From the NCBI RefSeq assembly GCF_000731095.1, contig NZ_JMTZ01000047.1, forward strand, positions 1-32,775: a DNA stretch of 32,775 nt, written 5' to 3'. The number at the start of each line of letters is the position of its first letter. Within the stretch, counting starts at the first letter, position 1. Below are positions 22,671-32,209 of the stretch, one piece after another. A program made the position numbers and the translations under genes. The notes under the pieces are model-generated. The model was not told the origin of the DNA. It worked only from the letters and a program-made list of their open reading frames with translations, and searched no databases. The stretch is from Lysobacter antibioticus. Its GTDB lineage: Bacteria; Pseudomonadota; Gammaproteobacteria; Xanthomonadales; Xanthomonadaceae.

Positions 22671-25063
22671 ATACCGGCCGACCGCCTCCGCGCCACAGCC
22701 AGATCGCGCTGCTGGTCGTCGCCACGCTGGCCGCGCGCTTCGCCCATGCCGGCGATCAGGCGCCGACCCAGGGCGACTTCGGCGGCGCCGGCCTGTGGCA
22801 GACGCCGACCGCGCGCATGGCCGACGAAGGCGAACTCGCGCTGTCGGTCAGCCGGGTCGAGCCGTACTCGCGCTACAACTTCACCGCCCAGCCCTTGTCG
22901 TGGCTGGAAGGCAGCTTCCGCTACACCCGTTTCGACAACGACGCCGCGCCGGTCGCGGACGGCGGCCGTTCGAACTCGGCCAAGGCCTTCGACGCCAAGA
23001 TCCGCCTGAGCCGCGAGAGCCGCTACCTGCCGGAGGTGGCGGTCGGTGCGCGCGACATCGCCGGCAAGCGCTATTTCTCCAGCGAATATGTGGTCGCCAA
23101 CAAGCGCTTCGGCCCGGTCGACGCCAGCCTCGGCGTCGCTTGGGGCAATCTGGGAGCGCGCGGCAACCTGGCCAATCCCTTGTCGGCGCTCGACGATCGC
23201 TTCGATCACCGTCCTTCGCGCAGCGGTTTTTCCGACGCCCGCTATCAGTTCGACCGGCCGCGCTACTTTCATGGCCGCGCCGCGGTGTTCGGCGGCGTGG
23301 CCTATCGCCCGGCCGGCAAGCCCTGGGAAGTGAAAGTCGAATACGACGGCAACGACTACCGGCACGAGCCCGGGCCGCGCCGCATCAAGCAGAGTTCGCC
23401 CTTCAACGTCGGCGTGGTTTATCGCCCGAATCGCCATCTCGACCTGAGCTTGGGCCTGCAGCGCGGCAATACCGCCTCGTTCGCTTTGACCCTGCACACC
23501 AACGCGGCCCGCCTGGCCGAACCGATCAAGGCCAAGGACCCGCCGCCGGTCGTACGTCGTTACGACGATGCGCCGGCGATTCCGACGATGGCGGCTACGC
23601 CGGCAGCCGCGTCAGTGCACGTGCCGGCCGCCTCGGCGACCGCCGCTGCAGGACCGGCGGCTCCGACCGCGCTCGCTTCGGGGGCGATCGCAGCGACGAG
23701 CGCCGCTTCGCCGCCGTTGCCGCAGGCGGCACCGTCCCCGGGTCTCGCTCCGCTCACCGCGGTCAGCGAGGCCGGCGTAACGCCGCAAACCGGTCTGCCG
23801 CCAATCGCGACGACACCGGCCTCAACGACGCAAACGTGGCCCGAGCCGGCCGCGCCCGAGCAGGTCGACTGGGAACAGGTCAGCCGCGAGCTGTACGACA
23901 ACGCCGGCGTGAGGGTCAGCAAAATCTCGCGGCGCGGCAGCGAATTGTTCGTCACCGGCGAGCAGACCCGCTATCGGCATTCGGCGAAGGGCCTGGGCCG
24001 CACCGCTCGCATCCTCGATAACCAAGTCGATGGCTCGGTCGACTGGTACACCCTGGTCTCGACCCGCGCCGGCATGGTAGTGGTCGAGACCAGCGTGCAG
24101 CGCGAACGCTTCGGCGAACTGCTCGATGGCGAGGCCGACCTTAAGACCTTCCGCCTCGGCGTCGAGCGCAACCGCCCGCAGGCGCGTCGCGAAGAGCTGT
24201 TGTATCGGGCGCCGCTGGACCGCTACGACGGCGGGTTCGGCCTCAGCGTCGGTCACGAACTCGGTGCGCCCGACACCGCCGCCCTGTACAAGATCGGCAT
24301 GGCCTACGACGCCGACTACCGGTTCGCATCGAACCTGTGGTTGAGCGGCCGCATCGAGGCCCTGATCGCCGACAACTACGACCGCTACGACGGCGGCCCG
24401 GTCACGGCCTTGCCGCGCGTGCGCAGCGACGTGCGCGAGTACGTGACGTCCTCGCGCGTGACCATGCCGCAGCTGCAACTGACCGCAGCCGGCTCGCTGG
24501 GCGCCGATTGGTACGGCATGGCGTATGTCGGCATGCTCGAAAGCATGTACGGCGGCGCCGGCGCCGAGACTTTGTACCGGCCGTTCGGGCAGCGCTGGGC
24601 GATCGGCGCCGACGTCAACTGGGTGCGCCAGCGCAGCTTCGACCAGGATTTCTCGTTCCGCCGCTATCGCACCGTCACCGGCCATGTCAGCGCCTACATC
24701 GACACCGGCTACAAGGACATCAGCTTGAAGGTCAGCGCCGGGCGTTATCTGGCGCGCGACTGGGGCGCGACCGTGGACGTCTCGCGCCAGTTCAACAACG
24801 GCGTGCGCATGGGCGCCTATGCGACCTTCACCGAGTACTCGCCGCGCCAGCCCGGCGACGGCGGTTTCGACCGCGGCCTGTATCTGTCGGTTCCGTTCGA
24901 CCTGGCGCGACAGCGTTCCAGCCGCAGCCGCGCCGATTTCGCCTGGTCGCCGGGCATCCGCGACAACGGCGCGCGCTTGAACAAGCGCTATGGCCTGTAC
25001 TCGCTGACCGAGGATCGCGACCGCGCCAGCTTCTCCGGCAACCTGCACCGCATCGTCGAGTAA
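22667..25063 (+). CDS. yjbH: YjbH/GfcD-family outer-membrane exopolysaccharide protein with a CTG start
   Basis: A 798-residue protein if it begins at CTG 22667. No ATG, GTG or TTG exists in frame before 22817, yet the frame codes upstream for an ideal signal peptide (RPPPRHSQIALLVVATLAA then AHA, cut after about residue 28) and for the family N-terminus QGDFGGAGLWQTPTARMA. GAGG lies 5 bases before the CTG, which overlaps the gfcC stop as CTGA. The conventional call at ATG 22817 would lose both. The YjbH regions flank an unusual Ala/Pro/Thr-rich linker of about 100 residues (about 300-395). The C-terminal half is rich in beta strands ending in aromatic residues, as in outer-membrane barrels. 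Third gene of the wza unit. Confidence 0.87.
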   Translation: MNTGRPPPRHSQIALLVVATLAARFAHAGDQAPTQGDFGGAGLWQTPTARMADEGELALSVSRVEPYSRYNFTAQPLSWLEGSFRYTRFDNDAAPVADGGRSNSAKAFDAKIRLSRESRYLPEVAVGARDIAGKRYFSSEYVVANKRFGPVDASLGVAWGNLGARGNLANPLSALDDRFDHRPSRSGFSDARYQFDRPRYFHGRAAVFGGVAYRPAGKPWEVKVEYDGNDYRHEPGPRRIKQSSPFNVGVVYRPNRHLDLSLGLQRGNTASFALTLHTNAARLAEPIKAKDPPPVVRRYDDAPAIPTMAATPAAASVHVPAASATAAAGPAAPTALASGAIAATSAASPPLPQAAPSPGLAPLTAVSEAGVTPQTGLPPIATTPASTTQTWPEPAAPEQVDWEQVSRELYDNAGVRVSKISRRGSELFVTGEQTRYRHSAKGLGRTARILDNQVDGSVDWYTLVSTRAGMVVVETSVQRERFGELLDGEADLKTFRLGVERNRPQARREELLYRAPLDRYDGGFGLSVGHELGAPDTAALYKIGMAYDADYRFASNLWLSGRIEALIADNYDRYDGGPVTALPRVRSDVREYVTSSRVTMPQLQLTAAGSLGADWYGMAYVGMLESMYGGAGAETLYRPFGQRWAIGADVNWVRQRSFDQDFSFRRYRTVTGHVSAYIDTGYKDISLKVSAGRYLARDWGATVDVSRQFNNGVRMGAYATFTEYSPRQPGDGGFDRGLYLSVPFDLARQRSSRSRADFAWSPGIRDNGARLNKRYGLYSLTEDRDRASFSGNLHRIVE

Positions 25064-25070
25064 GCAGCGG

Positions 25071-25092
25071 GGCCGTTCGCAGCGGAACGGCC
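25071..25092. terminator. Hairpin between convergent yjbH and queH
   Basis: GGCCGTTC (25071-25078) pairs perfectly with GAACGGCC (25085-25092) around a 6-base loop, in the 47 bases separating two converging genes. There is no T-run on either side, so if it ends transcription it does so weakly or with help; it may instead protect mRNA 3' ends. Confidence 0.5.
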
Positions 25093-25110
25093 GGCACCCG
25101 CGGCCGTGGC

Positions 25111-25782
25111 TCAATCGCCGCCGTCGTTGCCGTAATACATCAGCCCGATCTTGATGCGCTCGCGTCCCTGCGCTTTGCGGTGGCGGTTGCTGTCGCGCAG
25201 CGAGTACACGCAGCCGCAGTATTCCTGCTGATAGAACTGCTCGCGCTTGCTGATCTCGATCATGCGCTGGCTGCCGCCGGCCTTGCGCCAGTTGTAGTCC
25301 CAGTAGACCAGGCCCTCGTACGGCGCGGCGGCGCGGTGGCCGCTGCCGTTGATCTGCTCCATGTTCTTCCAGCGCGAGATGCCGAGCGAACTGGTGATGA
25401 CCGGAAAGCCGTGCTCGTGCGCATAAAGCGCGGTGCGCTCGAAGCGCATGTCGAAGCACATGGTGCAGCGGATGCCGCGCTCGGGTTCGTTCTCCATGCC
25501 CTTGGCGCGGGCGAACCAATGGTCGGTGTCGTAGTCGGCATTGACGAAGGGAACGCCGTGCTTCTGCGCGAAGCGGATGTTCTCTTCCTTACGCAGCTCG
25601 TACTCCTTCAGCGGATGGATGTTCGGGTTGTAGAAGAACACCGTGTAGTCGATCTGCGACTCGACGAAGGCTTCCATCAACTCGCCCGAGCACGGCGCGC
25701 AGCACGAGTGCAGCAGCAGCCTGCCGCCGTCGCCGGGCAGGCGCAGCCGCTCGCGGCCAGGGCTCAGCGTCGCTGCGCTCAC
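25111..25782 (-). CDS. queH: Epoxyqueuosine reductase QueH (cobalamin-independent)
   Basis: A 223-residue DUF208/QueH protein. It has the hallmark [18 protein letters not shown] (Cys27, Cys28, Cys31), then [20 protein letters not shown], the [16 protein letters not shown] motif (Cys106, Cys109), [11 protein letters not shown] and the terminal YCGCVYS pair (Cys189, Cys191). It reduces epoxyqueuosine to queuosine in the anticodon of tRNAs for Tyr, His, Asn and Asp. QueH replaces QueG, a cobalamin-dependent enzyme, and needs no B12. The start GTG 25782 overlaps the mmsB stop as GTGA, so it is translated with the catabolic operon. Its place under the B12-riboswitch leader is therefore meaningful. 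The long open frame further upstream is a shadow of mmsB. Confidence 0.93.
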
Positions 25783-26669
25783 AGGTCTTTCGCCACCAGC
25801 TTGACCACGCTGGAGAAATCCAGGCCGCCGTGACCGGCGCGGCTGTTCATCGCGTACAGATTGCGCGCGAGTTCGCCCAGCGGGATCGAGGCGCCGCTGC
25901 TCATCGCTGCTTCCGCGGCCAGGCCGAGGTCCTTGAGCATGAGATCGTTGCCGAAGCCGCCGCTGTAGCCGCGCGAGGCCGGCGCGTTCTCGAGTACGCC
26001 CGGCCAGGGGTTGCAGACTTCCGTCGCCCAACTGCGGCTGGTGCTGACCGCCATCATCTGCGACAGCACTTTCGGGTCCAGCCCGTGCGCACTGCCGAGC
26101 GCGAGCGCTTCGCCGGTCGCGGCCATGATCACGCCGAGCGCCATGTTGTTGCACAGCTTGGCGACCTGGCCGGCGCCGCTGGCGCCGACGTGGAAGATGT
26201 TCTTGCCCATGGCCTGCAACAGCGGCCGTGCGCGTTCCAGCGCCGCGGCTTCGCCGCCGACGATGAAGGTCAACGTGCCGGCGGCCGCGCCGGCGGTGCC
26301 GCCGGACACCGGCGCATCGATCATCTGCAGGCCGCGCGCCGTCGCGGCCGCGGCGACTTTCTGCGCCGTGGCCGGGGCGATGGTGCTGCAATCGATGACC
26401 AACGCGCCCGCCGGCATCTGCGCGAGCAGGCCGGCATCGCCGAGGTAGAGACCTTCGACGTGCCGGCTCGCCGGCAGCATCGAGATCACCACCTCGGCAT
26501 CGACCACGGCATCGGCCGCGTCGATGGCGGCGTGGGCGCCGGCCACGACCGCGCCGGCGACGAGGGCCGGCGCGAGATCGAACACGCGCAGGCTGTGGCC
26601 GGCCTTGAGCAGGTTGGCGGCCATCGGCCCGCCCATATTGCCCAGGCCGATGAAAGCGATGCGGCTCAT
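25779..26669 (-). CDS. mmsB: 3-hydroxyisobutyrate dehydrogenase
   Basis: A 296-residue beta-hydroxyacid dehydrogenase of standard length. It has the NAD-binding [20 protein letters not shown], Asp31 at the end of strand 2 favouring NAD+, the substrate-binding [18 protein letters not shown] and the catalytic lysine in [13 protein letters not shown] (Lys171). It oxidises 3-hydroxyisobutyrate to methylmalonate semialdehyde in valine breakdown. Related enzymes also take 3-hydroxypropionate, which is the step needed in a propionate shunt. The ATG overlaps the preceding hydrolase stop (ATGA), and the stop overlaps queH. Confidence 0.94.
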
Positions 26670-27838
26670 GCGGTGGTCTCCGTGAGGGCGCCCAGATCGG
26701 CGAGCGGGTGCGCCTGCGCCGGCCAGGGGGCGGTGAAGAAAGTTTCGGCCCAGGCCGGCGTGGCTTCGGTCAGGTGGGCCGGGTTCCAGCGCGGACTGCG
26801 GTCCTTGTCGATCAACAGGGCGCGGATGCCCTCGGCGAAATCGCCGTGCGCGGTGCAATGCAGGGATGCGGTGTATTCGAGACGAAAGGTGTCGGCGAGC
26901 GACAGCCCGGCGGCGCGGCGCTGCAACTCGTAACCGAGCCGGGCCGAGCCGGGTGCGCCGGCGGCGAGGGTCTTGCGCGCGTTCTGCAGCCAGGCGTCGT
27001 CGCTGTCGAGCGCGGCGATCGCTTCGACTACCGCGGGCAGATCGTCGTGCGCGCAGGCCGCGGCGATCGCGGCCGCGTGGTGCTGCAAAGGGCCGGGTGG
27101 GGCGGGTTCGGCGCAACCCTTCAGTACCGCGCTGAGCCGGCGCGCATCGTCGCCGTCGTCGGCCCAGTTCACCGCGGCGAGTGCGGCGTACACCGTTTCG
27201 CGTTGCGCTTCCGGCAGATAGTGATCGGCGAGGCCGGCATGGATCGCGTCGCCGGCGTTGAGCGGCGCGCCGGTCAAGGCCAGGAACAAGCCCGCGCGTT
27301 GCGGCACCCGGTTCAACAGCCAACTGCCGCCGACGTCCGGGTACAGGCCGACGGTGATTTCCGGAAACGCCAGCTTCGAGCGCTCGCTGACCACGCGGTG
27401 GCTGGCGCCGGCCATCAGGCCGATGCCGCCGCCCATGACGATGCCATGGCCCCAGCACAGCAGCGGCTTGGGATAGGTGTGGATGCGGTGGTCGAGCCGG
27501 TATTCGGTTTCGAAGAACTCGCGCGCGTGGACGTTGTCGCGGATGTCGCGGCTGCCGCTGGCGCGATGCTCCAGCATGCCGCGATACAGCCCGTGCAGGT
27601 CGCCGCCGGCGCAGAAGGCTTTCTCGCCCGCGCCTTGCAGCACGACCACGGCGACGGCGTCGTCCTGGGCCCAGGCCAGCAACTGCGCATCGAGCAGTTC
27701 GGCCATGGTCAGCGACAGGCCGTTCAAGGTCGCCGCTGCGTTCAAGGTGGCGAAGCCGATGCGGCGCCCGTTGGCGGTGCCGCGTTCTTCGAACAGGACC
27801 GGCGCGGCGACTGCTTCGTTTTCGAGCACGGCGTTCAT
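26666..27838 (-). CDS. 3-hydroxyisobutyryl-CoA hydrolase (enoyl-CoA hydratase/isomerase superfamily)
   Basis: A 390-residue crotonase-fold protein, longer than enoyl-CoA hydratases and typical of HIBCH enzymes. The oxyanion-hole motifs are [15 protein letters not shown] and [19 protein letters not shown]. The HIBCH signature [20 protein letters not shown] gives Glu160 and Asp168, the residues that match the catalytic pair in this family. It releases 3-hydroxyisobutyrate from its CoA ester; 3-hydroxypropionyl-CoA is a known alternative substrate of the family. The ATG overlaps the enoyl-CoA hydratase stop by ATGA. Confidence 0.92.
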
Positions 27839-28644
27839 GCGTTCTTCCACTGCGGCGCGCGCTTTTCCAGGAAGGCGAGCACGCCCTCGGTCTGGTCGGC
27901 GCTGTCGAACAGATCGACGAAGGCCTCGCGCTCGCGCACCAGGGCGGTGTCGTGGCTCTGGCTGCGGGTGGCCTGGATCAGGGCCTTGCAGGCGGCGACG
28001 CTGGTCGGGCTCTGCTTCTCGGCCTGCTTGGCCCACTGCAGTGCGCGCGCCTTGGCTTCGCCCTTGCCGACCACCTCTTCGACCAGGCCGATGCGCAGGG
28101 CGGTGGCGGCGTCGACGCGTTCGCCGAGCAGCATCATCCGCTTGGCCCAGCCTTCGCCGACCAGACGCGGCAGGTGCTGGGTGCCGCCGGCGCAGGGCAG
28201 CAGGCCGACGGTGGCTTCGGGCAGGGCCAGTTGGGCCTGCTCCTCGACGATACGCAGATCGCAGGCGAGGGCGCATTCCAGCCCGCCGCCCATGGCGTAG
28301 CCGTTGATCGCGGCGATCGACACGCCGCGGAACGCGCTGAGGGTCTCGAAGGCTTCGCCGAAGCGGCGTGCGGCATCGCGCGCCAAGGCCTTGTCGCCGT
28401 CGGCGAACTGCTTCAGGTCGGCGCCGGCGGAGAAGAATTTCTCGCCTTCGCCGGTGACGACCAGGGCGTAGACCTCGCGGTCGGTATCGAGGTCGCGCAC
28501 CAGCTCGCGCAAGGCGGCGAGGCTGTCGCGGGTCCAGGTGTTGGCCGGGGGATTGCTCAGGGTGACGACGGCGGTGTGGCCGTCGATGTCGAGCTTCAGT
28601 CCGTCATAGACCTTCCCGGTGTGCTGCTTGTCGGCACGGCTCAT
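27835..28644 (-). CDS. Enoyl-CoA hydratase
   Basis: A 269-residue crotonase. Oxyanion-hole regions are EKFFSAGADLKQFADG and INGYAMGGGLECALACDLRI. The two catalytic glutamates are present, in GGGLE and in LPEATVGLLPCAGGTQHLPR. It hydrates methacrylyl-CoA in valine breakdown and could hydrate acrylyl-CoA. It sits between the acyl-CoA dehydrogenase and the hydrolase with 4-base overlaps on both sides, matching pathway order. Confidence 0.92.
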   Translation of the reverse strand: MSRADKQHTGKVYDGLKLDIDGHTAVVTLSNPPANTWTRDSLAALRELVRDLDTDREVYALVVTGEGEKFFSAGADLKQFADGDKALARDAARRFGEAFETLSAFRGVSIAAINGYAMGGGLECALACDLRIVEEQAQLALPEATVGLLPCAGGTQHLPRLVGEGWAKRMMLLGERVDAATALRIGLVEEVVGKGEAKARALQWAKQAEKQSPTSVAACKALIQATRSQSHDTALVREREAFVDLFDSADQTEGVLAFLEKRAPQWKNA

Positions 28645-29831
28645 CGCAATTCCTCTTCGGTGTTCAGCAGATGGCGCGCAATGATCACGCGCATGATTTC
28701 GTTGGTGCCTTCCAGGATCTGGTGCACGCGGCAGTCGCGCAGCAGCCGCTCGATCGGGTACTCGCGCATATAGCCGTAGCCGCCGTGGATTTGCAGGGCC
28801 TCGTTGCAGATGGCGAAGCCGGCATCGGTGGCGAAGCGCTTGGCCATCGCGCACCAGACGATGGCGTCGGCGCTGCCGGCATCGAGCTTGCGCGCCGCGG
28901 TATGCACCATCTGCCGCGCCGCGACCAGTTGCGTGGCCATGTCGGCGAGCTTGAACTGCAGCGCCTGGAACTCGGCGAGCGGTTTGCCGAACTGGCGCCG
29001 TTCGCCGAGGTAACGACGTGCGGCGTCGAGTGCGCCCTGGGCCGCGCCGAGCGAGCACGCGGCGATGTTGAGGCGGCCGCCGTCGAGGCCTTTCATGGCG
29101 ATCTTGAAACCGTCGCCTTCGCCAGCGAGCAGATGCGCGGCCGGCACCCGCACGTTGTCGAACACCACGCCGCGCGTGGGCTGGCTGTTCCAGCCGAGTT
29201 TTTCTTCTTTGCGCCCATAGGCGATGCCGGCGCTGTCGGCCGGCACCGCGAACGCGCTGATGCCGCGTGCGCCGTCGCCGCCGGTGCGCGCCATCACCAC
29301 CAGCATGTCGGTGGCGCCGGCCCCGGAAATGAAGGCCTTGGCGCCGTTGATCAGGTAATGATCGCCGTCGCGTTCGGCGCGGGTGCGCAGGGATGCGGCA
29401 TCGGAACCGGCGCCGGGTTCGGTCAGGCAGTACGAGGCCAGGCATTCGCCGCTGGCGAGCCGAGGCCCCCAGAGGTCGCGCACGGCGAGCGAAGCGTGCG
29501 CGGTCAGCATCCAGGTGGCCATGTTGTGGATGCTGATGAAGGCCGCCGTGGACGGATCGAGCGCGGCCAGTTCCTCGAACACGACCACCGCATCGAGCCG
29601 GGTCAGGCCCGAGCCGCCGGCGGCTTCGTCGACGTACAAGCCGCAGAACCCGAGCTCGCCGGCCTTGCCGATGGCCTCGCGCGGGAAGATGCCTTGCGCG
29701 TCCCAGTGCGCCGCGTGCGGCGCCAGTTCGGCCAGGGCGAAATCGCGCGCGGCCTCGCGGAAGGCGAGCTGGTCTTCGCCGAGCTGCGATGGCGGTGGAC
29801 TGACCGCCTGCAGGTTCATGACGGCGGCCAT
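28641..29831 (-). CDS. Acyl-CoA dehydrogenase (isobutyryl-CoA-type)
   Basis: A 396-residue FAD enzyme. It has CLTEPGAGSDAASLRTRAE and FISGAGATDMLVVMART in the central flavin region, then GRLNIAACSLGAAQGALDAA, RRQFGKPLAEFQALQFKLADM and the C-terminal QIHGGYGYMREYPIERLLRD. The catalytic base is in VHQILEGTNEIMR (Glu374), the position used by short-chain and isobutyryl-CoA (ACAD8-like) dehydrogenases. It oxidises isobutyryl-CoA to methacrylyl-CoA, and activity on propionyl-CoA to acrylyl-CoA would fit the shunt model. The ATG 29831 shares one base with the mmsA stop (TGATG); an alternative ATG is 12 bases downstream. Confidence 0.92.
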   Translation of the reverse strand: MAAVMNLQAVSPPPSQLGEDQLAFREAARDFALAELAPHAAHWDAQGIFPREAIGKAGELGFCGLYVDEAAGGSGLTRLDAVVVFEELAALDPSTAAFISIHNMATWMLTAHASLAVRDLWGPRLASGECLASYCLTEPGAGSDAASLRTRAERDGDHYLINGAKAFISGAGATDMLVVMARTGGDGARGISAFAVPADSAGIAYGRKEEKLGWNSQPTRGVVFDNVRVPAAHLLAGEGDGFKIAMKGLDGGRLNIAACSLGAAQGALDAARRYLGERRQFGKPLAEFQALQFKLADMATQLVAARQMVHTAARKLDAGSADAIVWCAMAKRFATDAGFAICNEALQIHGGYGYMREYPIERLLRDCRVHQILEGTNEIMRVIIARHLLNTEEELR

Positions 29832-31354
29832 CACTTCAGACTGATCGTGGTGTTGACGCCGTGGCCGAGCGTGTCGTCGTCGAACCAACGCGCGGTGACC
29901 GTCTTGGTCTGGGTATAGAACATCACCACTTGCTTGCCGTAGGGACCGAGGTCGCCGAGCTTGGAGGCGCGCGAGCCGGTGAACGAGAACAGCGGCACCG
30001 GCACCGGGATCGGCACGTTGATGCCGACCTGGCCGACGTCGATGTCTTCCTGGAAGCGGCGCGCGGCCGCGCCGGACTGGGTGAACAGAGCGGTGCCGTT
30101 GCCGTTGGGGTTGGCGTTGATCAGCTCGATCGCGGCTTCCAGAGTGTCGGCGGCGAGCACGATCAGTACCGGGCCGAAGATCTCTTCGTCGTAGATGCGC
30201 ATGCCGGGCTCGACGCCGGAGAAGATGGTCGGGCCGACGAAGTTGCCGCGCTCGAAACCCGGCACGGACGGCTTGCGGCCGTCGAGTTCGAGCCTTGCGC
30301 CTTGCTCGACCCCGGAGGCGATCATGCTTTCGACGCGTTCGCGCGCGGCGCAGGAAATTACCGGGCCGACATCGGTGCCGGGCTCGGTGCCGGCATTGAC
30401 CTTGAGCGTGCGCGCCTTGGCGACCAGCTCGGGAATCCAGGCCTGCGCTTCGCCGACCAGCACCGCGGTGGAGGCGGCCATGCAGCGTTGGCCGGCGGCG
30501 CCGAACGCGGCGCCGGCGAGGGCGTTGAGGGTTTGCTCCTTGTTGGCGTCGGGCAGCACCACCGCGTGATTCTTCGCGCCCATCATGCACTGCACGCGCT
30601 TGCCCGCCAGCGAAGCGCGGTGGTAGACATGGGTGCCGACCTTGGTCGAGCCGACGAAGGACACCGCCTTGATGTCGGGGTGGTCGCAGATCGCATTGAC
30701 CACGTCTTCGCCGCCGTGGACGACGTTGAGCACGCCCTTGGGCACGCCAGCCTGCAGCGCCAGCTCGACCAGGCGCATCGTCACCAGCGGGTCCTGTTCG
30801 GACGGCTTGAGCACGAAGGTGTTGCCGGTGGCGATGGCCATCGGGAACATCCACAGCGGAATCATCGCCGGGAAGTTGAACGGGGTGATGCCGGCGCAGA
30901 CGCCGAGCGGTTGCAACAGGGTGTAGGTGTCGACGCCGCCGGCGACGTTGTTGGCCAACTCGCCGAGTTGCAGGTTGCCGATCGCCGCTGCGTGCTCGAC
31001 CACTTCCAGGCCGCGGAATACGTCGCCTTCGGCGTCGGCCAGGGTCTTGCCTTGTTCGGCGGTGAGGATCGCGGCGAGCTCGCCCATGTGCTCGCGGATC
31101 AGTTGCTGGTACTTGAGGAAGATGCGCGCGCGCGCGCCGATCGGGGTCTTGCGCCAGCTCTTGAAGGCCTGGTGCGCCGAACGTACCGCGGCGTCGACTT
31201 CGTCCGCGGTCGCGAACGGCACCCGCGCCAGCACCGCCTGCGTGGCGGGGTTGACGACATCGCGCCATTGTTCGGATCGGGATTCGACGAATGCACCGTC
31301 GATCAGCAGCTTGACCGTCGCGACTTCGGTCGCGACGCGATTCATATCGTTCAT
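29831..31354 (-). CDS. mmsA: Methylmalonate-semialdehyde dehydrogenase (CoA-acylating)
   Basis: A 507-residue aldehyde dehydrogenase of the MmsA/IolA branch. It has the NAD-binding [20 protein letters not shown] and [13 protein letters not shown], and [13 protein letters not shown], with the Asn replacing the usual ALDH glutamate as in MmsA. The catalytic cysteine is in [11 protein letters not shown] (Cys291). It converts methylmalonate semialdehyde to propionyl-CoA and CO2; members also convert malonate semialdehyde to acetyl-CoA, the last step of a propionate shunt. ATG 31354 has GGAG 8 bases upstream, which can be hidden in a 6-bp stem. It is the first gene of the operon, with a cobalamin riboswitch in its leader. 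Confidence 0.95.
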
Positions 31355-31361
31355 TGTTTCA

Positions 31362-31400
31362 GCTCCGTGTCGCTCACCCGCGTGACGGGGATTGCGGAGC
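31362..31400 (-). promoter_or_regulatory. Hairpin that sequesters the mmsA ribosome site
   Basis: On the minus strand GCTCCG (31400-31395) pairs perfectly with CGGAGC (31367-31362), and the latter contains the GGAG of mmsA. The loop holds a smaller TCAC/GTGA stem. Such ribosome-site masking is the usual expression platform of translational cobalamin riboswitches in proteobacteria. How the aptamer state changes this stem is not visible by eye. Confidence 0.6.
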
Positions 31401-31444
31401 AAGACAAGTCGGTTCCACGCAACGGACATCCGCGTCGAGCCAGC

Positions 31445-31478
31445 CCGTCCGGTTGCCCACCGCAACACCCGAGGACGG
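31445..31478 (-). other. Two-part hairpin in the mmsA leader
   Basis: CCGTCC and GGACGG (31445-31450 with 31473-31478) form an outer stem, with GTTGC/GCAAC (31452-31456 with 31462-31466) inside. It lies between aptamer and ribosome site, overlaps the neighbouring palindrome by 2 bases and could therefore form as an alternative to it. Confidence 0.5.
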
Positions 31479-31494
31479 CATCGCATGCGATGCC
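31477..31494. promoter_or_regulatory. 18-base perfect palindrome just after the aptamer
   Basis: GGCATCGCATGCGATGCC is its own reverse complement. As RNA it gives a 7-bp stem with a CATG loop directly after the aptamer's closing helix. As DNA it could be an operator for a dimeric regulator. Either reading is possible. Confidence 0.5.
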
Positions 31495-31495
31495 C

Positions 31496-31693
31496 GCCAC
31501 TGGCCGGTCTCCGGGCTTGCGAGCGATGCGGAGCGATCCGCATCACCCCGACACCTTCCCGCGAAATCGCAGTGGTATTGAGTCGGGTGTTCTCGCCTAC
31601 CGTTGCGGGGGCAGCGCCGGAATGGAGTCTGTCGACTCGCACCGGCTTCCCGTTTCACCCTGCTCGCCGGTACGGCGGCAGGACACCTGTGGC
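31496..31693 (-). ncRNA. Cobalamin (B12) riboswitch in the mmsA leader
   Basis: Read on the minus strand, the conserved cobalamin aptamer blocks appear in the right order and spacing. They are ACAGGTG (about 31690), GGGAAGCCGGTGCGAGTC (31651-31634), CCGGCGCTGCCCCCGCAACG (from 31620), CCACTG then CGCGGGAAGG (31575-31553), and AGCCCGGAGACCGGCC (31517-31502). The P5 stem GAGTC/GACTC and a 7-bp stem GATGCGG/CCGCATC between the last blocks fit the fold. GCCAC (31693-31689) and GTGGC (31500-31496) can close the structure. It lies about 130 bases before the mmsA ribosome site with no gene between. These riboswitches usually turn genes off when adenosylcobalamin or a related corrinoid binds. Confidence 0.93.
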
Positions 31694-31699
31694 CGGCGG

Positions 31700-31728
31700 A
31701 GTGTAGGCGTCGGATCGAAAGCGGACAA
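31700..31728 (-). promoter_or_regulatory. Sigma70-like promoter of the riboswitch-mmsA operon
   Basis: On the minus strand TTGTCC (31728-31723) and TACACT (31705-31700) are 17 bases apart, each matching 4/6 of consensus. The predicted start site, about 31693, falls on the first base of the aptamer's closing stem, which supports the call. Confidence 0.5.
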
Positions 31729-32209
31729 GCTGCGCTGCGCAAAGCTGCGCGCTCGCTCGCACGACAGCGTGGTCGGATTGCTTCGAACGCCGCATTCATC
31801 TTGTCGTCGCGCGGATGTGTGACGCCTCTGCACGGCACCGCACCACGGCGAATGGGATGCATCGCGACGAATGCGCCCTGTTCGCTTGCTTGCGTAGGAG
31901 ATCGCGTTCGCCTGTGTGCGATGCTCGGGCGAAACGCCGGGCATCGCTCGATACTGTGATGGGCAGCGTGTATTCCTGGAAACGATGCGGGCGAAATGAC
32001 TGGTGCGGCGGGGGCTGCTGTGACCAGGGGCATCCGGATCGGCATGGGCGTATCGCCACGATGGGGAGCATCGGTGGTGGTGGATGGGTTGGTCGTCGAG
32101 CGCCGGCGCTGAAGCATCCCGCGGGCAGTGGCCGCTCGGGTGACATTCGCATGCCGTTGCAAGATCATGGCGAGAGCGCAATACGGCATTCCTGAAGGAG
32201 CGGCACCCG
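31729..32209. other. About 480 bases without a convincing gene
   Basis: The stretch lies between the riboswitch promoter and the small plus-strand gene. Several frames are open but are Arg/Ser/His-rich, lack domains and disagree with local codon use. No strong dyad, terminator or RNA fold is visible. It probably includes the promoter of the downstream small gene. Confidence 0.5.

Follow-up and report, generated by a model that had tools for sequence, protein, structure and literature searches.

When vitamin B12 (cobalamin) is scarce, the nematode Caenorhabditis elegans induces a propionate shunt built of five enzyme types. Genes for the same five enzyme types, followed by queH, form an operon behind a cobalamin riboswitch in Lysobacter antibioticus, on contig NZ_JMTZ01000047.1 (C47), the whole 32,775 nucleotides of which make up the window analysed here; the genome (G000) has a size of 5.5 Mb and a completeness of 100%. 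In the accessible part of PMC3766115, isozymes of B12-dependent enzymes are one of four target classes of cobalamin riboswitches, and isobutyryl-coenzyme A (CoA) mutase is not named in that part; we infer that its fused form, IcmF, can be counted among such B12 enzymes. Searches of the open-licence literature gave no paper whose title and abstract describe a cobalamin riboswitch before mmsA or an exchange of IcmF for a valine operon, and the arrangement is not described in the accessible parts of PMC9600662, PMC2667541, PMC10378866, and PMC6593275.

The data presented below point to the operon being a B12-free reserve set, and we hold it probable that low B12 would move isobutyryl-CoA from IcmF to the operon enzymes and let QueH take over the reduction of epoxyqueuosine from QueG. 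The genes are arranged on the minus strand in the order mmsA-acd-ech-hibch-mmsB-queH, tightly packed with successive overlaps of 1, 4, 4, 4, and 4 bases, and separated from the aptamer by 130 bases (Table 1). The aptamer matches the covariance model of the cobalamin riboswitch over its full length, well above the model's gathering score of 31.5 bits, and is the sole Rfam match above gathering score in the window. An initial annotation made from the sequence had recognised both the aptamer and an overlapping operon of these six gene types, and covariance-model and family matches, respectively, confirm the two; the range proposed for them, 25111-31693, covers the operon, but the aptamer model extends 12 bases beyond it, to 31705.

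The distal valine gene set of the mmsAB type, comprising a probable isobutyryl-CoA dehydrogenase, hydratase, HIBCH, MmsB, and MmsA, is present as a whole. The nearest solved structures to MmsA are those of mitochondrial methylmalonate/malonate-semialdehyde dehydrogenase. No NCBIfam equivalog exceeded its cut-off for the acyl-CoA dehydrogenase; its best solved relative is human ACAD8 (1rx0, 462.2 bits versus 328.5 for the next one), while the top NCBIfam match, acryloyl-CoA reductase, scored 378.6 bits, far under the cut-off of 640. The substrates preferred by the operon enzymes are presumed to be those of their nearest relatives, and the enoyl-CoA hydratase would hydrate methacrylyl-CoA. The queH gene has a GTG start and overlaps the stop codon of mmsB. 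Its product has no NCBIfam match and matches the solved QueH structure 7lc5, with which the CC, CxxC, and CGC motifs align (cysteines at 27, 28, 31, 106, 109, 189, and 191).

The B12-dependent counterparts of these enzymes are encoded in the same genome. A PF01642 search of G000 revealed one gene, matched in two stretches, whose product of 1168 amino acids (L045:4834-8340) is, judging by its closest structures, the fused isobutyryl-CoA mutase IcmF and not methylmalonyl-CoA mutase, which had initially been taken for the counterpart. Among solved structures, it scored 1322 bits with IcmF against 267 with 2-hydroxyisobutyryl-CoA mutase and 257 with methylmalonyl-CoA mutase. It aligns in three stretches with most of the IcmF structure 4xc6, and the B12, G-protein, and mutase domains are located in one chain. 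The Phe/Gln active-site signature, which we take to mark IcmF as opposed to the Tyr/Arg presumed for methylmalonyl-CoA mutases at these positions, was present in all 24 PF01642 loci read, including those of all 10 genomes with both operon and IcmF. A Glu/Leu/Phe/Val dehydrogenase gene lies about 3.7 kb from icmF. Enzymes of the 2-methylcitrate cycle and QueG, for which the initial annotation had suggested searching the genome, were found: prpB is located together with the 2-methylcitrate synthase gene prpC and the propionate-CoA ligase gene prpE at locus L216, and QueG is encoded elsewhere in G000, alongside the operon QueH. PrpB was detected in 50 of 50 genomes searched, above its cut-off in 49, and the predicted B12-free route for propionyl-CoA in G000 is provided by the methylcitrate enzymes PrpB, PrpC, and PrpE. 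The B12-dependent NrdJ and MetH were identified in all 10 genomes carrying operon and IcmF, G000 among them.

A sample of 99 genomes of the family was searched for PF01642, the MmsA operon, QueH, and QueG. Operon orthologues, defined by an MmsA identity of at least 80%, occur in 19 of them (G000, G001, G017, G018, G030, G043, G044, G048, G050, G053, G058, G064, G071, G077, G085, G088, G090, G092, and G098), with all five genes matched in 17; the operon of G030 ends at a contig edge, and that of G088 has no hydratase match between its other genes. PF01642 was found in 80 of the 99 genomes (31 of 41 plus 49 of 58). Fourteen of the operon genomes have no PF01642 match, five have both (G000, G048, G058, G085, and G090), and the five genomes with neither are all only 72-86% complete. 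Operon and IcmF are nearly mutually exclusive in the family (Fisher's exact test, 2.7e-9, uncorrected for kinship). The pattern recurs in genus g29, where nine operon genomes have no PF01642 match and three operon-less genomes have one. Since the operon swaps with IcmF among relatives, isobutyryl-CoA fits as the common substrate, and propionyl-CoA does not. Excluded from the operon counts were 23 of 42 TIGR01722 matches, which represent a looser MmsA relative with 47-53% identity; the other operon genes are missing from the stretches read around it, and G001, G053, and G090 carry it in addition to the operon. An operon of family f8 with 57-61% MmsA identity was likewise set apart; PF01642 was matched in none of 14 f8 genomes searched, and Rfam gave no match in five loci read.

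The presence of the riboswitch follows that of IcmF. Altogether, 32 operons were read, of which 19 came from the family sample, 10 from a sample of the order, and three were named loci. The riboswitch leads 10 of the 32, the linkage to mmsA that the initial annotation had proposed to survey, and these are the operons of all 10 IcmF genomes, with none among the 22 in genomes without IcmF. Within the family, RF00174 was found upstream of mmsA in all five genomes with operon and PF01642 and in none of the 14 operon genomes lacking a PF01642 match; the RF00174 matches in two riboswitch-less loci, L021 and L026, face a TonB receptor gene or queH, not mmsA. A covariance model built in this analysis (R1) was run on 20 of the 22 riboswitch-less operons and detected no aptamer; L021 and L026 were omitted as their aptamers were among its building sequences. 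The stretch read before mmsA in L021 (G018) is limited to 685 bases. Hits to a loosely defined B12-box pattern turned up everywhere and were discarded, so that only covariance-model results were used.

Predictions recorded beforehand for further genomes agreed with all 13 outcomes. The Luteibacter metagenome-assembled genome (MAG) represented by L047, where the operon has no riboswitch, gave no PF01642 match; PF01642 is present in the genomes of Luteibacter yeojuensis (L048) and Lysobacter enzymogenes (L049); the operons of G223, G205, and G126 (L200-L202), which belong to a different family and have both systems, are riboswitch-led; and seven further g29 operons (L203-L209) are not. In a phylogeny of three operon proteins, built by a quick method from 35 rows, the ten riboswitch-led operons and L047 form one clade with an SH-aLRT (Shimodaira-Hasegawa-like approximate likelihood ratio test) support of 96, in which L049 is the named operon nearest to that of the window. 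The clade interleaves two families, and L049 pairs with G126 of family f12 (support 97), which suggests that the riboswitch-led operon may have been transferred between IcmF-bearing hosts. Either end of the L047 leader matches that of L200, with 78% over 63 bases (E 2.6e-9) for one and 74% over 118 bases (E 1.7e-11) for the other. The 217 bases that separate the two matches in L200, almost the entire aptamer core, correspond to 11 bases in L047. A permissive Rfam scan of the L047 leader gave no cobalamin match, and this region is listed in Table 1 as a fossil leader.

The leader of the window operon contains two probable hairpins besides the aptamer (Table 1). The stem directly 3' of the aptamer, which we take to be of the P13/L13 type (columns 43-47 with 53-57), is conserved, each of its pairs being retained in at least nine of the 10 leaders; these pairs hardly vary, so that they document conservation and not covariation. 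The second hairpin would enclose the ribosome-binding site of mmsA. In ViennaRNA folds of the last 75 bases of the leader, the GGAG of the window is unpaired with a probability of at most 0.04, and all four GGAG bases are below 0.15 unpaired in six of the 10 leaders and part-paired in two. The 22 riboswitch-less leaders mostly have weak Shine-Dalgarno matches and are therefore unsuited as an accessibility control. Scans for sigma-70 promoters and intrinsic terminators in 31300-32000 and 24950-25200 found nothing, and a TTGTCC-17-TACACT arrangement upstream of the aptamer was noted by eye only. We presume that control acts on translation, which would be off with B12; the hairpin predictions are only suggestive of repression by B12.

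We propose the following as the most probable course of events. At high adenosylcobalamin, the riboswitch would fold and mask the ribosome-binding site of mmsA, and IcmF would handle isobutyryl-CoA derived from valine, yielding n-butyryl-CoA. When B12 is scarce, IcmF would become inactive and the riboswitch would release the operon, whose enzymes would convert isobutyryl-CoA via methacrylyl-CoA, 3-hydroxyisobutyryl-CoA, 3-hydroxyisobutyrate, and methylmalonate semialdehyde into propionyl-CoA, to be consumed by the methylcitrate cycle with no need for B12. Under the same conditions, QueH would substitute for the B12-dependent QueG.

Five cobalamin riboswitches, including that of the window, were found in G000 among 150 of 326 first-look candidates scored. 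The other four precede two TonB receptor genes, one of which is followed further along the same strand by a BtuR/CobO-type gene, the genes for both subunits, large and small, of a class I ribonucleotide reductase, and MetE. Since NrdJ, MetH, and QueG are present, all three of the non-uptake riboswitches found lead B12-free substitutes of enzymes that the genome also encodes. The riboswitches before ribonucleotide reductase and MetE are located about 8 kb apart on contig C43 (L031:4514-15619). These riboswitches, together with the co-occurrence of QueH and QueG, bear out the suggestion of the initial annotation that a set of B12-free substitutes stands behind a B12 riboswitch.

In the family sample, QueH was found in 12 and QueG in 96 of the 99 genomes. 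Scanning of named QueH loci with R1, limited to the top 80 out of 573 or more, gave 19 matches in 18 loci and none in the remaining 62 of these 80. Two of the matches belong to the operons L048 and L049. The riboswitch is located immediately upstream of queH in L052-L055, L060, L066, and L092 (titled Paracoccus), whereas in L051 and L056 it heads a metE-queH pair; the unannotated loci L058 and L061 have the same spacing. At L076:4951-10675 (titled Devosia soli), the riboswitch is followed on one strand by metE, the genes of 2-methylcitrate synthase and methylisocitrate lyase, and queH. The match lies downstream of queH in L085, L118, and L103, with a second match in L103 facing away, and 8.5 kb upstream of queH in L063. 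In G001, the riboswitch leads a partial catalytic MetE domain protein followed by queH. No riboswitch was found near queH in L019 and L020, and the sequence available before queH in L023 amounts to only about 90 bases. G018 (L021) has queH and no QueG match, and its sole nearby riboswitch faces the adjacent TonB receptor gene. The queH at the end of the G048 operon (L029:5356-5989) is split between two reading frames and may be a pseudogene or reflect an error of sequencing. We consider it likely that these observations and the survey of operons combine into an order-wide rule, in which the valine pathway is kept under the riboswitch by hosts with IcmF but not by others, the aptamer having been deleted in one host or more, together with queH-ended cassettes of interchangeable contents (queH alone, metE-queH, metE-prpC-prpB-queH, and valine pathway-queH).

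Table 1. Positions of the operon genes and leader elements in the window, and of the related fossil leader in a Luteibacter MAG.
Feature	Position	Strand	Evidence or remark
Cobalamin riboswitch aptamer, RF00174	31485..31705	-	cmscan 110.9 bits, E 3.1e-27, model 1-189/189
Probable P13-type hairpin GTTGC-GGTGG-GCAAC	31452..31466	-	directly 3' of aptamer
Probable ribosome-binding-site hairpin	31362..31400	-	GCTCCG (31400-31395) pairs with CGGAGC (31367-31362), containing the Shine-Dalgarno sequence
mmsA, CoA-acylating methylmalonate-semialdehyde dehydrogenase	29831..31354	-	TIGR01722 743.5 bits, cut-off 448.5
acd, acyl-CoA dehydrogenase, probably isobutyryl-CoA dehydrogenase	28641..29831	-	Pfam Acyl-CoA_dh_N/M/1
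ech, enoyl-CoA hydratase	27835..28644	-	NF006566 451.1 bits, cut-off 286
hibch, 3-hydroxyisobutyryl-CoA hydrolase (HIBCH) type	26666..27838	-	PF16113 ECH_2 372.5 bits; NF004127 338.7, cut-off 274
mmsB, 3-hydroxyisobutyrate dehydrogenase	25779..26669	-	TIGR01692 396.6 bits, cut-off 291.6
queH, B12-independent epoxyqueuosine reductase	25111..25782	-	PF02677 218.1 bits, cut-off 23.5, E 1.2e-64
Fossil cobalamin riboswitch leader (Luteibacter MAG)	L047:4271-4455		both edges retained, aptamer core deleted

The rest of the window up to the operon (1-25063) has the appearance of an exopolysaccharide cluster, with a YjbH-family protein at 22817-25063 (PF06082) and, by eye, open reading frames resembling export, chain-length, and glycosyltransferase proteins.

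The initial annotation had considered the operon to be not simply valine catabolism but a bacterial propionate shunt replacing methylmalonyl-CoA mutase at low B12. The occurrence of the same five enzyme types, the naming of the enzyme nearest to MmsA for both methylmalonate and malonate semialdehyde, and the acryloyl-CoA reductase match of the dehydrogenase, although well under its cut-off, agree with such a function, and promiscuous activity of the operon enzymes on C3 substrates is possible. Nevertheless, we regard a propionate shunt as most improbable, given that the PF01642 search of G000 yielded IcmF and no methylmalonyl-CoA mutase, that the methylcitrate genes prpC, prpB, and prpE share one locus there and PrpB is found in every genome searched, that the dehydrogenase is closest to ACAD8, and that it is IcmF with which the operon trades places. 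The isobutyryl-CoA route fits instead, and the proposal is supported as far as it concerns a B12-free substitute set behind a B12 riboswitch. The riboswitch could also mainly serve queH, the valine genes being passengers between aptamer and queH, as might be expected from the loci in which it stands directly before queH (L025, L026, L052-L055, L060, L066, and L092) or before metE-queH (L051 and L056). In G223, G205, and G126, however, it leads the same five genes with no queH match within the 15 kb read, the extent to which these genomes were searched for queH, making this explanation very unlikely as the main one; it is compatible with the reserve-set reading, and both may hold together.

Ordinary valine catabolism under a riboswitch untied to IcmF, for example one acquired a single time by accident and maintained through inheritance or transfer, would account for the riboswitch operons forming a single clade on which the label changes only twice. 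Such a history appears unlikely in view of the span of the clade over two families, the IcmF found in all ten riboswitch hosts, the lack of a PF01642 match in the hosts of all 22 riboswitch-less operons, among them that of L047, the clade member whose aptamer core is deleted, and the position of the other riboswitches found in G000 before uptake genes or B12-free isozymes.

The reserve-set reading has to be weighed against several observations that do not favour it. The riboswitch operons being one clade, the counts of 10 of 10 and 0 of 22 are not independent; the riboswitch label needs just two changes on the operon tree, and a test of independent pairs, with the IcmF trait set equal to the riboswitch trait, found two independent contrasts (p 0.5). 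Absence of PF01642 is based on hidden Markov model searches of drafts, among which G030 is 87% and G088 is 85% complete, and the completeness of the MAG containing L047 is not given, so its lack of icmF could be due to missing sequence. Of the 20 operon-less genomes with the looser MmsA relative, 19 have PF01642, and no riboswitch was found at any of the 23 loci of this relative; the rule therefore concerns the operon and does not extend to all MmsA proteins of IcmF genomes. Isovaleryl-CoA and pivalyl-CoA are also substrates of IcmF according to the accessible part of PMC10481361. As for the ribosome-binding-site hairpin, GGAG is mostly unpaired in the near-identical leaders L027 and L028 (two of 10), a fold of the whole window leader has the hairpin in the centroid and lacks it in the minimum-energy structure, and RNAalifold, applied to a MAFFT alignment of the 10 leaders, chose other pairings without this hairpin, which is why the claim rests on single-sequence folds.

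If the reserve-set reading is true, a whole catabolic pathway and QueH would join the B12-free substitutes under cobalamin riboswitches, IcmF would gain a testable role in valine breakdown, and valine users may shift their end product between butyryl-CoA and propionyl-CoA with the supply of B12 in their environment. Whether a riboswitch heads the alternative pathway can be predicted from whether the B12 enzyme is encoded, and such a gene set need not, as had been expected, be a propionate shunt. Among known systems, the riboswitch-controlled isozymes MetE for MetH and NrdAB for NrdJ share with the operon an aptamer of the same family before genes replacing a B12 enzyme that is also in the genome, but here the replacement would be a pathway of five enzymes that ends in another product (propionyl-CoA versus butyryl-CoA), and QueH is added. 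The bacterial mmsAB, or distal valine, pathway uses the same enzymes and gene families, and the orthologous operons of 22 relatives are riboswitch-free, whereas the operon of the window has a cobalamin riboswitch at its head and queH at its end. The C. elegans shunt resembles it in enzyme types, its induction at low B12 being known and that of the operon predicted, and differs in that IcmF, instead of methylmalonyl-CoA mutase, is the B12-dependent counterpart in the present case, and that methylcitrate enzymes are present. The Devosia soli gene row of L076 likewise combines one cobalamin riboswitch with multiple B12-free substitutes and queH in last place, with MetE and methylcitrate enzymes in place of the isobutyryl-CoA pathway.

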